From Erysipelotrichales bacterium (GTDB lineage Bacteria; Bacillota_I; Bacilli_A; Erysipelotrichales; Erysipelotrichaceae), in NCBI GenBank assembly GCA_017532345.1, contig JAFXJJ010000098.1, forward strand, positions 1 through 35,873: a stretch of DNA of 35,873 bases, in the 5' to 3' direction. Shown here piece by piece: positions 26,801 through 32,476 of this stretch; positions within the stretch are counted from its first letter, which is position 1, and each line of letters starts with the position of its first letter. A program made the translations under genes and the position numbers. The notes below the pieces were generated by a model. That model saw only the letters and a program-made list of their open reading frames with translations, searched no databases and was not told the origin of the DNA.

Positions 26801-26822
26801 AAATAGAGCTTTCGCTCTATTT
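26801..26822 (-). terminator. Terminator after the EAL gene
   Basis: AAATAGAGC (26801-26809) and GCTCTATTT (26814-26822) form a 9-bp stem with a TTTC loop, followed on the minus strand by TTTGTATATG. The right arm covers the stop codon (26817-26819). Confidence 0.8.
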
Positions 26823-28722
26823 CTTTAATAACGCTAAGAAGTCTTCTTCAGGTATAGCTTTAGAATAATAATATCCTTGGAAGAATTTACATTCTAAAGA
26901 TGATAATAACTCTACTTGTTCTTTCGTTTCTACACCCTCTACAATTAAATCCATATTCATATCTTTAATCATCGCAATAGTATATTTTAAAGCCATCATC
27001 GCCTTTTCATCTTCCATTGCAGACCAAAGCATGGACTTATCAATCTTAATCGTATGGAATGGATATTGAATTAAGTGAGTCATATTAGAGAATCCTGTAC
27101 CAAAATCATCTAGTGAGAAGTTAACACCATAATTAATTAATTTATCCATATTCTTACGTAATGTTTCACTAGAAGCTACTGCAGCCGTTTCAGTAATTTC
27201 TAGATTAATAAAATTATACGGTAAATTATATTGATCCATAATCGCAACTAATTCTTCATGTAAACGTTCTTGCATGCATTGTACTGCTGATAGATTCACA
27301 TCAATACATTCAATACCATAGTCACATAGGCGTTCATCTGCAATGAAGCTACATACTTCTCTAAATACATATCTACCAATTTCAATAATTAAACCACTCT
27401 TTTCAGCTATTGGAATAAATTCATCTGGACTAATAAATCCTAATTCATCATTTTGTAGTCGTATTAATGCTTCAGCAGAGCTGTAACAACCTTTTTCTAA
27501 TGAGAAGATTGGTTGATAATACACTTTAAATTGTTTCTTCACAATAGCTGTTTTCAGAATTTGTTGGATTTGTTTAGTTCGCTTTTGACTATGTAGTTCT
27601 TTTTCCGTTAAGTAAGCTTTAAGATTTTCTCCAGAAGGAAGAACATGTTGTGTATACTCTATAAAATCTGTAACATCCTCAATACATTTAACGGTATTTG
27701 GTGATGATGCCATACAAATATTGATTGATAACACTACATCAACACCATTAAATGTAAATGGATGTTTGAAACGCTTTACTAATTCATCAGCAATATAGTT
27801 CCATTCATTATCACTCATCGAAGATAAGATAAAGAACTGTTGTCCAGCCGTATAGAACACCTTATTTTGAACAACTGATGTCAAGAATCTAGCAATTTGA
27901 TTCAATATTTCTTTTTCACCAGAAACACCGAATACTTCTCTAACACTATGTAAACCATCAACATGAATTCCCATAACTTCAAATGACTTTTGTTGCTCGA
28001 AGTATGATGCTGCTGTAGTTACAAGAGCATTACGATTTAAAATACCTAAATCTTTATCTGTATAATCAGCTGGATTTTCTAATGATAAATAAACTAATAA
28101 TAAAGCTATTGATAACACAAACGGTAATATCAATACTTCAGGATAAAACATTTGGAATACTACAGCTGCAATACTTCCAATTGAATAAAAGTATACAGTA
28201 GCTTTTTTGTCCTGTAGTAAACATATACGAATACTTAATAGTACGATAAAGTGCAACTCCCATATAGTATAACGCAATCACATATAATAAGCTCATACAT
28301 GGGCCGTGTTGGTACTTGAAATTCCCATCAAAGTAGAATATCAACTTAGTTAATGGTGTAGTTGCCACTAACAAAATAACGAACCCAATAGGCATAAACA
28401 TACCTAGTTTATCTTTAATAGTAAGAGGCTTATTCTTCTTTATATTAAATAATACATATGTATAATACAATGCAACTGATGTATTGAAGGTTATTAAATA
28501 GACTGCATTAAGTAGATAATTTATCCATAATGGTAATACACTGGCATGATTAATAGTTACTACACTTAACACATCCAAAATAGTAGATGTTAATGCTACC
28601 CATAATAGTATTGTAAAGACTAGAGTTGATCTAGTACTGATTGTTTTCTTATACAAGAAATGCAGCATTACAGTTATCATAATAGTCAGTGCAGCAAAAT
28701 CAAAATGTATAATATATTCCAT
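26817..28722 (-). pseudogene. Membrane-bound degenerate-GGDEF/EAL protein, frameshifted
   Basis: Two overlapping frames make one gene. The first (ATG 28722, AAGGAG site) encodes about six to seven membrane helices and ends out of frame after YSYMFTTGQK. The second continues ATVYFYSIGSIAAVVFQ, a further helix, a GGDEF-like domain and an EAL domain to 26817. Removing one base of the A6 run (T6 on +, 28203-28208) joins them into 634 aa. The GGDEF site is AGQQF, so cyclase activity is unlikely. The EAL domain keeps EALIRL, NLSAVQC, EITET, DDFGTGFS, KIDKS and EGVET, so c-di-GMP phosphodiesterase activity is plausible if the frame is intact. Broken gene, slippage or sequencing error cannot be told apart. 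Confidence 0.75.
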
Positions 28723-28832: not shown

Positions 28833-29312
28833 TTATTTCTTTATTGATTCAATCCATGCGTTTACTACATCCATCGATATTTCCATCTCATCTTCATCAA
28901 ATGGCACTTCCAAAACACTATGAATAGATTCCTTACCACATAGTTCTTCTAAGCATTCTTTTCCTTTACCTAATCCAAAGCCACCATTAGTCGCTAAGAC
29001 ATAAATATCTTTATTAGTTAATGGATACTTTTCTAAGAAAGAAATCATTACTGGCGCAATATTATACCACCACGTAGGTGTACATAAAATAACAGTATCA
29101 TAACTATCTAAATTAGGAATATTTGTTTGTAATTCAGGACGTACATTTTTAGTTTCTTCATTTTCACCTAATGCCACAACATCATCATAGTTATCGCTAT
29201 ATGGTACTACTGGTAATAGTTCAAGAATCTGACAATTTAATGCTTCCTTAATGTAATTAGCAAGTTTTCTAGTATTATTTTGATAAGAATAGTAGATAAT
29301 AATTGAATTCAT
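28833..29312 (-). CDS. Flavodoxin
   Basis: A 159-aa FMN-binding electron carrier. The phosphate-binding loop is YYSYQNNTRKLA (8-19), the FMN ring regions are TPTWWYNIAPV (82-92) and ATNGGFGLGKGKE. The size fits short-chain flavodoxins of the WrbA/flavodoxin_4 kind. GAGGGGG before the ATG. The MerR-type regulator gene ends 76 bp upstream in the same orientation; in many Firmicutes such pairs respond to reactive aldehydes or redox stress. Confidence 0.88.
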   Translation of the reverse strand: MNSIIIYYSYQNNTRKLANYIKEALNCQILELLPVVPYSDNYDDVVALGENEETKNVRPELQTNIPNLDSYDTVILCTPTWWYNIAPVMISFLEKYPLTNKDIYVLATNGGFGLGKGKECLEELCGKESIHSVLEVPFDEDEMEISMDVVNAWIESIKK

Positions 29313-29388
29313 AAGAATCCCCCTCGTCTTTTCAAAACTATACTATACCATTTACAATTCAATTTCAATTAATTGACCCTTATTTCTA

Positions 29389-29745
29389 TTATTTTATTAA
29401 ACCTTTATCATAATAATCAATTTTACGGTCTAAACGTTCTATAGTATCTACAATATCTTTAGCTTTTTCTTCTAGTATTTTGCGTTGTTCGATAAGTAGT
29501 GCCTTTCGCTCATTGATGGTAGACTCCCCTTTTTGGAATAGTGTTACATATTCTATTAAGGCTTCTATTGATAGGCCAGCACCACGCATACACTTAATAA
29601 ACTCTATCCACATACATGCATTTTCATCGTATTCTCTAATACCAGCATTATTTCGAGGTACAGGTGGTAATAACCCAATCTTTTCATAATATCGTAATGT
29701 ATCTTTACTTAATTCATATTTCTCAGCAACTTCAGTTATTTTCAT
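29389..29745 (-). CDS. MerR family transcriptional regulator
   Basis: A 118-aa regulator with an N-terminal MerR winged-helix (MKITEVAEKYELSKDTLRYYEKIGLLPPVPRN, positions 1-32) and a long dimerisation helix (KALLIEQRKILEEKAKDIVDTI...). There are no extra metal-binding Cys residues, so an AdhR/NmlR-like aldehyde or redox role is more likely than metal sensing. GGGAGA before the ATG. Its promoter has the MerR-type 19-bp spacer, and a 20-bp dyad covers the spacer (29785-29804), consistent with autoregulation and control of the downstream flavodoxin. Confidence 0.88.
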   Translation of the reverse strand: MKITEVAEKYELSKDTLRYYEKIGLLPPVPRNNAGIREYDENACMWIEFIKCMRGAGLSIEALIEYVTLFQKGESTINERKALLIEQRKILEEKAKDIVDTIERLDRKIDYYDKGLIK

Positions 29746-29891: not shown

Positions 29892-32444
29892 ATGAAACAA
29901 CTTGTTATTGGTACATTAGCTCATGTAGATGCTGGTAAAACAACATTAAATGAAAGTTTACTTTATACTGGTGGTGCTATACGTAAACTTGGTAGAGTTG
30001 ATCATCAAGATTCATTTCTCGATTATGATACTCAAGAACGTAGTAGAGGTATTACTATATACATGAAACAAGCTCGTTTTGAATATCATGACTGTAGTTT
30101 CACGATGATTGATACTCCTGGTCATGTCGACTTTTCTACTGAAATGGAAAGAACATTAAGAGTACTAGATTATGCCATTCTTGTAATCAGTGGGAGCGAA
30201 GGTGTACAAGCACATACACTTACCATCTGGAATCTATTAAAACACTATAATATTCCAGTATTCTTGTTTATCAATAAAATGGATATCACACATAAAACAA
30301 AAGAAGAGTTAATGAATGATATTCAAAAGCAACTACATAGTAATTGTATTGATTTCACCAACTCCGATTATGAAGAAGCAGTAGCACTATGTGATGAAAA
30401 CCTTTTAAATGAGTATTTAAATACTAATGCCTTACAATTAGATAGCGTATCTGAACTAATATTTAATCGTAAAGTATTCCCATGTTTCTTTGGTTCTGCC
30501 TTAAAGCTAGATGGAATAGATGATTTATTAACAGGATTAGCTACATTCTCAAAAGAGAAAAAATATCCTGATGAGTTCGGTGCTATTGTTTATAAAATAT
30601 CTAAGGATGAAAAAGGTAATCGATTAACTCACGTTAAGATAACTGGAGGCAGTATTGCTGTTAAGTCAATCTTAGACAATGGTGAAAAGATTGACCAAAT
30701 ACGTGTTTATTCAGGTACTAAGTTTGATGCTGTAAATGAAGCTACAGCAGGTATGATTTGTTGCTTTAAAGGATTAGAAAAGACTCAATTAAATGATGTC
30801 TTTGGTAATGAAAAAGAAGTATCTACACCGATGATATCTTCCTATATGAGTTATCGTATTCATATCCTAGATAAAGTTGATAATATCAAAGGATATCAAA
30901 TGTTGAAGGAACTGCAAGATGAAGATCCTCAATTACGTATTTCCTATTCACAAGCAAATGATGAAATCCGCATTCAATTAATGGGAGATGTTCAATATGA
31001 AGTACTTCAAAAATTAATCCTTGAAAGATATAAATTAAATGTTGCTTTTGACTTTGGGAAAATTGCTTATAAAGAAACGATTGCGGAAAAGGTAGAAGGT
31101 GTAGGTCACTATGAGCCATTACGTCACTATGCTGAAGTACATATCTTATTGGAACCACTACCTATAGGTAGCGGAATTGAAGTTATTAGTAAATGCCACA
31201 CTGATACATTAACTAAGAATTATCAAAATCAAGTTCTATCACTATTAGATGGTAAAGAACATTTAGGTGTACTAACTGGATCGCCAATCACAGATATTAG
31301 ACTAACGCTTGTTAGCGGAAAAGCACATGACAAGCATACTGAGGGCGGCGATTTCCTACAGGCTACATATAGAGCAGTAAGACATGGTTTAAAATCAACT
31401 ACTTCTATACTACTAGAACCTTTTTATGAGTTTAAGATTATAATCTCTCCAGAATATATTAGTCGAGTAACTTATGATTTAGAAACTATGCATGGTTCAT
31501 TCACCGTTAACGACCTTGATGATTTAGTTTGCATTACTGGTTCAGCTCCAGTACGTTTCATGCAAGGGTATCAAACTACACTAGCCTCTTTAACCCGAGG
31601 TAGCGGTAAATTTACTTGTCATTTTAAAGATTATGAGCCTTGTATCGAAAGTGAAAAGGTAATTGAAGAAATTAATTATGATAGTGAGACAGATATTGAA
31701 AATCCTACTGGCTCTGTATTCTGTAAGCAAGGCGCAGGATTCTATGTTCCTTGGAATGAAGTAACTTCGTATATGCATCTACCTCCTTACTTAACTAAAC
31801 CTAAGGCTATAGAACCTATTAAGCCTGCTACCAATCGGTATCATGTAAGTGATGAAGAACTACAAAAGGTAATCGAACGTACCTTTGGACCAGTTAAGAC
31901 TCGCTTATACCATGAATATAAGCGTAGTGATGATTCATCATCTGTATCTATTAAAGATGTCCTAATGCCATGCTTACTTGTAGATGGATATAATATCATC
32001 CACTCATGGCCAGCATTAAAAGAACTTGCTAGTACTGATTTATATAATGCGAGAATACAACTAATAGATTATATGAATAATTATCAAGGATTTAAAAATA
32101 ATCTCTTAATTTTAGTATTTGATGCTTATAAAGTTAAAGAAAATCCTGGGAAGATTTCTAAAATAAACAATATCTATGTTGTTTACACAAAAGAATCTGA
32201 AACAGCAGATACATATATTGAGCGAGTTACTCATGACTTAAGTAAGAAATACAACATAACAGTTGCAACTAGCGATGGTATGGAACAACTCATTATCCTA
32301 GGTAATGGTGCTAACCGTATATCAGCTAGAGAATTAATTCTAGATTACGAAAAATTAATGGAAGGATTCCGTAAAGATTATGATCCTGAATTAACTAAAT
32401 CATTCAATATGGCATTAGAAGATATTAGAAAGCAAAATGATTAA
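29892..32444 (+). CDS. TetM-like ribosomal GTPase fused to a Rae1/YacP-like NYN nuclease
   Basis: An 850-aa fusion. The N-terminal 660 residues are an EF-G/TetM-type translational GTPase: AHVDAGKTT (10-18), DTPGH (74-78), NKMD (128-131), and later EF-G-like domains ending VRFMQGYQTTL. Residues about 692-830 form a NYN (PIN-like) domain close to B. subtilis Rae1: VDGYN (Asp698), VFDAYKV (Asp744), ETADTYIE (Asp773), ATSD (Asp795) and SARELI. Rae1 cleaves mRNA in the ribosomal A site. The domain IV tip is SGKAHDKHTEGGDF rather than TetM's SPVSTPADF, which argues against tetracycline release. The start at 29892 is set by AAAGGAG and family length; the frame from 29847 adds a non-family extension. 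Single gene with its own terminator. Confidence 0.88.
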   Translation: MKQLVIGTLAHVDAGKTTLNESLLYTGGAIRKLGRVDHQDSFLDYDTQERSRGITIYMKQARFEYHDCSFTMIDTPGHVDFSTEMERTLRVLDYAILVISGSEGVQAHTLTIWNLLKHYNIPVFLFINKMDITHKTKEELMNDIQKQLHSNCIDFTNSDYEEAVALCDENLLNEYLNTNALQLDSVSELIFNRKVFPCFFGSALKLDGIDDLLTGLATFSKEKKYPDEFGAIVYKISKDEKGNRLTHVKITGGSIAVKSILDNGEKIDQIRVYSGTKFDAVNEATAGMICCFKGLEKTQLNDVFGNEKEVSTPMISSYMSYRIHILDKVDNIKGYQMLKELQDEDPQLRISYSQANDEIRIQLMGDVQYEVLQKLILERYKLNVAFDFGKIAYKETIAEKVEGVGHYEPLRHYAEVHILLEPLPIGSGIEVISKCHTDTLTKNYQNQVLSLLDGKEHLGVLTGSPITDIRLTLVSGKAHDKHTEGGDFLQATYRAVRHGLKSTTSILLEPFYEFKIIISPEYISRVTYDLETMHGSFTVNDLDDLVCITGSAPVRFMQGYQTTLASLTRGSGKFTCHFKDYEPCIESEKVIEEINYDSETDIENPTGSVFCKQGAGFYVPWNEVTSYMHLPPYLTKPKAIEPIKPATNRYHVSDEELQKVIERTFGPVKTRLYHEYKRSDDSSSVSIKDVLMPCLLVDGYNIIHSWPALKELASTDLYNARIQLIDYMNNYQGFKNNLLILVFDAYKVKENPGKISKINNIYVVYTKESETADTYIERVTHDLSKKYNITVATSDGMEQLIILGNGANRISARELILDYEKLMEGFRKDYDPELTKSFNMALEDIRKQND

Positions 32445-32450
32445 TAAAAT

Positions 32451-32476
32451 GGAAGAGTTTTAGTTATAACTCTTCC
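32451..32476 (+). terminator. Terminator of the GTPase-NYN gene
   Basis: GGAAGAGTT and AACTCTTCC form a 9-bp stem with an 8-base loop, followed by TTTCTTATTATT. It lies 6 bp past the stop. Confidence 0.82.

Follow-up and report, generated by a model that had tools for sequence, protein, structure and literature searches.

The fusion gene and its surroundings

The window analysed here is a stretch of 35,873 nucleotides from an Erysipelotrichales bacterium (contig JAFXJJ010000098.1). It encodes a protein of 850 residues in which an EF-G/Tet-type translational GTPase is joined to a nuclease domain of the Rae1 (YacP) type. The open reading frame has its ATG at 29892, with a good ribosome-binding site (AAGGAG) ~7 nt upstream, and its stop at 32444. 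The features are as follows.

29892-32444, + strand: full open reading frame, 850 aa, EF-G/Tet-type translational GTPase plus NYN_YacP (Rae1-like) nuclease
29901-30545, + strand: G domain, residues 4-218, with P-loop AHVDAGKTT, RGITI, DTPGH (H78) and NKMD
30576-31046, + strand: domains II and III (Pfam EF-G_D2, residues 229-304; EFG_III, residues 318-385)
31056-31397, + strand: domain IV, residues 389-502, with GxGHxEPLxHYxE at 403-415 and the tip H479-x-K481-H482-T483 ... D487
31410-31787, + strand: domain V (residues 507-585) and a subfamily-specific C-terminal extension (586-632), GSVFC-x(2)-GAG-x-VPW...MH
31788-31964, + strand: linker, residues 633-691, pLDDT low at 637-652 and 669-688
31974-32390, + strand: NYN_YacP/Rae1-like nuclease domain, residues 695-833, with D698, N701, D744, D773 and D795 conserved
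32391-32441, + strand: C-terminal tail, residues 834-850, ending MALEDIRKQND, which resembles the LExxRR tail of standalone Rae1 in degenerate form
32451-32476, + strand: terminator-like hairpin, 7 nt 3' of the stop codon

Pfam matches covered the G domain (GTP_EFTU, residues 4-218, E = 2.7e-51), domain IV (EFG_IV, 389-502, E = 3.8e-18), domain V (EFG_C, 507-585, E = 5.1e-17) and the nuclease domain (NYN_YacP, 695-833, E = 5.9e-45). The GTPase half is intact over residues 4-585 and continues into the extension to about residue 632. With domains G, II, III, IV and V, motifs G1-G4 and the catalytic His, it belongs to the EF2/EF-G family. Among 56 full-length fused ORFs, each G motif was found in 55-56, with no consistent loss, and ribosome-stimulated GTP hydrolysis is predicted from what is known of the family. 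The source genome has a separate, normal EF-G, and the fusion is its sole NYN_YacP protein.

The terminator-like hairpin lies right behind the stop codon, and transcription of the gene looks monocistronic. A MerR-type regulator gene is located upstream in divergent orientation, adjoined by a flavodoxin (Flavodoxin_4) gene; this pair (window 28833-29745, - strand) did not recur beside other fusions, and no conserved operon partner was present in the 26 loci compared. Neither a tet leader peptide nor a mobile context was found at the gene, no toxin-antitoxin-like partner was seen at fusion loci, and an anti-phage defence role was dropped as PADLOC returned no match. The window contains no Rfam match for an RNA leader or riboswitch, and its promoter-like sites are no more frequent than in shuffled sequence. 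Elsewhere on the - strand (26817-28722), an EAL/GGDEF protein (26817-28277) is overlapped by an upstream ORF in another frame (28138-28722) that has no Pfam match; the two look like one membrane GGDEF-EAL gene split by a frameshift or sequencing error.

The Rae1-like domain, its linker and its tail

The initial annotation had aligned the C-terminal part by eye with B. subtilis Rae1 and placed Asp698 and Asp773 at its catalytic positions, and both assignments held up. The NYN_YacP profile scored 153.7 bits against a curated cut-off of 24.6, and a phmmer search of the PDB with the C-terminal part was significant only for B. subtilis YacP/Rae1 (5MQ8, 5MQ9; E = 5e-25). An AlphaFold (AF2) model of residues 688-850 (pLDDT 87) has the Rae1 fold with the catalytic-type Asp residues kept, and its three best PDB matches are Rae1 entries 5MQ9/5MQ8 (E = 1e-11, TM about 0.7). 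Identity to the B. subtilis protein is about 40% over 132-138 residues. Rae1 residues D7, N10, D81 and D104 align with D698, N701, D773 and D795, the first two lying in the VDGYN motif of the family and the last being the Asp of TSD. No copy deviates at these four positions, whether fused (74/74) or standalone (25/25), and D744 (the Asp of FDA) is invariant in 23 aligned fusions. In the original Rae1 work, D7 and D81 were reportedly mutated as catalytic residues. The invariance of the nuclease Asp residues, together with the retention of G1-G4, indicates that both halves are under selection for activity. B. subtilis Rae1 is itself reported to be an endoribonuclease of the ribosomal A site, where it cleaves mRNA, and its activity may be raised by stalling (PMC6613710).

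The fusion differs from B. subtilis Rae1, a standalone protein of 170 aa that is encoded in rlmB-rae1-sigH and ends FEKWRRG, in its attached GTPase, its genomic site and its degenerate tail. The linker between the halves is flexible, with pLDDT below 50, and is ~60 aa long in the window protein and 57-113 aa among fusions. Amid the disorder is a semi-conserved short helix, DEEL..V (residues 654-665, window 31851-31886), a possible docking motif. In the full-length AF2 model (pTM 0.60), the disordered linker makes the position of the NYN domain relative to domain IV unusable; with confident domains on either side of it, the modelled nuclease may be able to reach widely.

An LExxRR-type motif ends standalone Rae1 in 25/25 cases and fusions in 0/55 from Clostridia, while a loose look-alike is present in 12/60 fusions of the window's phylum, including the window protein (ALEDIRK). 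A first count had suggested that the Rae1 tail was lost from every fusion, and this claim was softened when a looser pattern revealed the degenerate forms in that phylum. The tail contains R166 of B. subtilis Rae1, and R166P is a loss-of-function change (PMC6613710). Since the GTPase is joined at the opposite end of the NYN domain, loss of the tail is not forced by geometry. Its decay may instead reflect a need that was relaxed after the GTPase took on ribosome targeting.

A GTPase related to, but distinct from, TetM

NCBI labels members of the family 'TetM/TetW/TetO/TetS family ...' or 'translation factor GTPase family protein'. Atkinson 2015 noted in one sentence a YacP-like NYN RNase domain on Tet proteins of ten clostridial species (Clostridiales only), with the suggestion that they confer antibiotic resistance through an rRNA RNase (PMC4342817). 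Judged by that description, the architecture is the same and the family almost certainly so; the fusion architecture has been known since 2015 and is not new, and our literature search found no later paper on it. Rae1 itself was reportedly characterised in 2017, after that description.

Under the resistance proposal, the GTPase would dislodge the drug and the RNase would provide a second resistance step. Besides its publication (PMC4342817), the proposal has in its favor that TetO/TetM are the best whole-domain relatives of known role, five-domain EF-G-like GTPases of the same family and fold (31% identity; the same holds for TetW) whose domain IV reaches the A site. The domain IV tip argues against it. 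The initial annotation had noted that the TetM tip loop is not conserved, and residue by residue, TetM Ser508-Pro509-Val510 aligns with D480-K481-H482 of the window protein. In TetM it is Pro509 that overlaps tetracycline (PMC7456112). Among 76 fused members this site is Lys in 74 and Pro in none, the flanking Ser and Val are replaced too, and His482 and Thr483 occur in all 76. H479, which aligns with the conserved tip His of EF-G, is present in 73/76. Three divergent fusions with long tree branches (L069, L070 and L074; 33-37% identity to the window protein) have altered tip residues and intact nuclease Asp residues.

Scores are also far below the curated NCBIfam Tet cut-offs (391 of 775 bits for tet_protect; 283 of 1100 for TetM/W/O/S), and the gene is a single-copy chromosomal core gene that lacks a mobile context and a tet leader peptide, with only two plasmid-filed records containing it (Monoglobus and Agathobacter rectalis). 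On these grounds, tetracycline resistance was rejected as the main function. By its sequence, the GTPase does not qualify as a protector of the TetM type; tetracycline protection by the fusion is unlikely, and the full proposal of protection plus RNase is very unlikely. The doubt that the initial annotation cast on the public tetracycline-resistance label is borne out by the tip loop, the cut-offs and the single-copy core distribution, and that label is probably wrong.

The subfamily has features of its own. The block GxGHxEPLxHYxE is invariant, its TetM counterpart being ...HIEPNPFWAS, and the GSVFC..GAG..VPW..MH extension is missing from both TetM and EF-G; this extension, the nuclease domain and the lack of a mobile context set the fusion apart from TetM/TetO/TetW. 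EF-G and EF-G2 (e.g. Bacteroides EF-G2, 8DMF, whose molecule name lists TetQ) share the fold and the tip His, but the GTPase half is only 29% identical to B. subtilis EF-G. Closer relatives are unfused sister GTPases (40-47% identity) of Ligilactobacillus salivarius megaplasmids, Bacillus sp. EB01, Halanaerobium and some Clostridia, which have the same domain IV invariants and extension but end after ...MH at about 645-660 aa, without an NYN domain. As these features are common to fused and unfused proteins, the special role of the GTPase would predate the fusion. The sister gene of L. salivarius pMP1046A (locus L079, 5529-7920) is divergent from an rpsN (S14) gene, and the L. salivarius protein is labelled tetracycline resistance yet lacks the TetM tip Ser-Pro-Val.

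Distribution and proposed role

A survey beyond the source genome, which the initial annotation had envisaged, places the fusion in hundreds of genomes. In the window's order, NYN_YacP occurs in 219/316 genomes (about 70%), nearly always as a single copy in an ORF of ~830-930 aa. A GTPase-based search of the order recovered the same genes, and neither domain was seen without the other. The few shorter ORFs, one (G171) aside, lie at contig edges or frameshifts. Recurrence of the same 830-930 aa fusion in hundreds of genomes rules out chance or an assembly artefact, and the absence of the gene from about 30% of genomes in the order shows that it is not essential. A 295-genome sample of the window's phylum contained only fused copies and no clear standalone NYN_YacP, and in another clostridial order the domain is present in 64/148 genomes, nearly always clearly fused. 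The fusion belongs to the vertically kept chromosomal core, unlike a mobile resistance gene.

In the 195 sampled Clostridia genomes, the fusion occurs in 72 and a standalone copy in 60; no genome has both, and 63 have neither. Because the counts are phylogenetically clustered (one to two events on the trees), the Fisher p of 7e-16 overstates this exclusion and is a guide only. On each of the two trees the fused/unfused label changes at least twice, which indicates that fusion or fission happened once or twice. In one tree TetM/W/O fell inside the fused clade on a branch of 7.6; this was judged to be long-branch attraction, and they were left out when the tree was built again. In genome G992, a standalone NYN protein (L139) scores as fused-like and has a weaker tail (LEKIRL), with an unfused GTPase encoded elsewhere; it is a possible fission product. 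Genomic context also separates the two forms: 20/26 standalone copies have both rlmB and sigH within 1.5 kb, compared with 0/147 fusions, one of which has rlmB alone nearby. The source genome carries its rlmB on a different contig (C101) from the fusion. The rlmB-rae1-sigH locus is a trait of genome context, not a defining feature of the protein.

The unfused GTPase is present in 14/195 Clostridia genomes, never together with the fusion, and in 12/151 Bacilli. It occurs without any NYN_YacP in both Halanaerobium genomes, one Fusobacteriales MAG and 6 Clostridia; the GTPase therefore has its own role. The idea that unfused GTPase and standalone Rae1 cooperate in trans was considered and set aside: co-occurrence was weak (8/14, p = 0.04 without phylogenetic correction), and several genomes with the unfused GTPase have no NYN_YacP. 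The existence of lone GTPases and the flexible, variable linker would suit two independent enzymes, an EF-G2-like GTPase and Rae1, that share a chain for co-expression only, with cleavage free of GTP control. The fusion is, however, stable across hundreds of genomes, its domains are only ever joined in the window's order, and the targeting-type Rae1 tail is degraded after fusion; we consider such independence quite unlikely.

Our preferred reading is that the GTPase took over ribosome targeting for the nuclease, and that the fusion is a replacement for Rae1 that cuts mRNA on ribosomes (probability of about 0.55). By analogy with its relatives, the protein is predicted to bind ribosomes and to have both GTPase and nuclease activity, as a housekeeping ribosome-acting factor and not an acquired resistance gene. 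The EF-G-fold half with GTP would bind the ribosomal factor site, pushing domain IV towards the decoding centre, and the tethered Rae1 half would then cleave mRNA at the A site or close to it, on ribosomes that are stalled or have this site free. The GTPase would supply the targeting that standalone Rae1 achieves alone, probably aided by its LExxRR tail, and in these lineages the fusion would do the job that standalone Rae1 does elsewhere. As the A site is the expected place of action for both GTPase domain IV and Rae1, the two must take turns; cleavage would come after domain IV withdraws, or at a neighboring position.

This proposal draws on the Rae1 domain identified by sequence and fold, the retained GTPase motifs, mutual exclusion with standalone Rae1, the difference in synteny, the altered tail and the lack of an operon partner. 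Against it stand the lone GTPase relatives, competition for the A site, the clustered nature of the exclusion and the ~30% of the order without the gene. The mRNA substrate, the stalled-ribosome trigger and the GTP gating are our own inferences. The substrate might instead be A-site tRNA or rRNA, with the nuclease serving to mature ribosomes, control their quality or shut them down under stress: rRNA/tRNA maturation was the first role suggested for NYN domains (cited in PMC4342817), and the GTPase half implies ribosome contact. We regard this as unlikely, since the characterised relative Rae1 cleaves A-site mRNA and neither a toxin-antitoxin-like partner nor a defence-library match was found.

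A GTP-controlled nuclease acting on stalled ribosomes, as the initial annotation envisaged, is consistent with all findings, with Rae1 exclusion and the altered tail as circumstantial support. More tentatively, and with some doubt, it can be hypothesized that the fusion is an enzyme dedicated to bacterial ribosome quality control, whose EF-G-type GTPase detects stalled ribosomes and licenses the covalently attached A-site mRNA endonuclease, and that this GTP-gated RNase replaced Rae1 across gut Firmicutes while mislabelled as tetracycline resistance. We know of no earlier case of a translational GTPase with its own RNase, and this would be the first if the reading is true.

What is new here is the single-copy chromosomal status and spread of the fusion (about 70% of the order, 72/195 Clostridia), the finding that fused and standalone Rae1 never share a sampled genome, a GTPase that by its sequence appears to be non-TetM, below all curated Tet cut-offs and with an unfused sister family, and the apparent loss or degradation of the LE-x-x-RR-type tail. 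If our reading is true, a core gene of gut Firmicutes labelled as tetracycline resistance would be an mRNA-decay or ribosome-rescue factor, and resistome counts would be affected. The fused and standalone forms, with their exchange of the tail, offer a natural experiment on Rae1's route to the ribosome.
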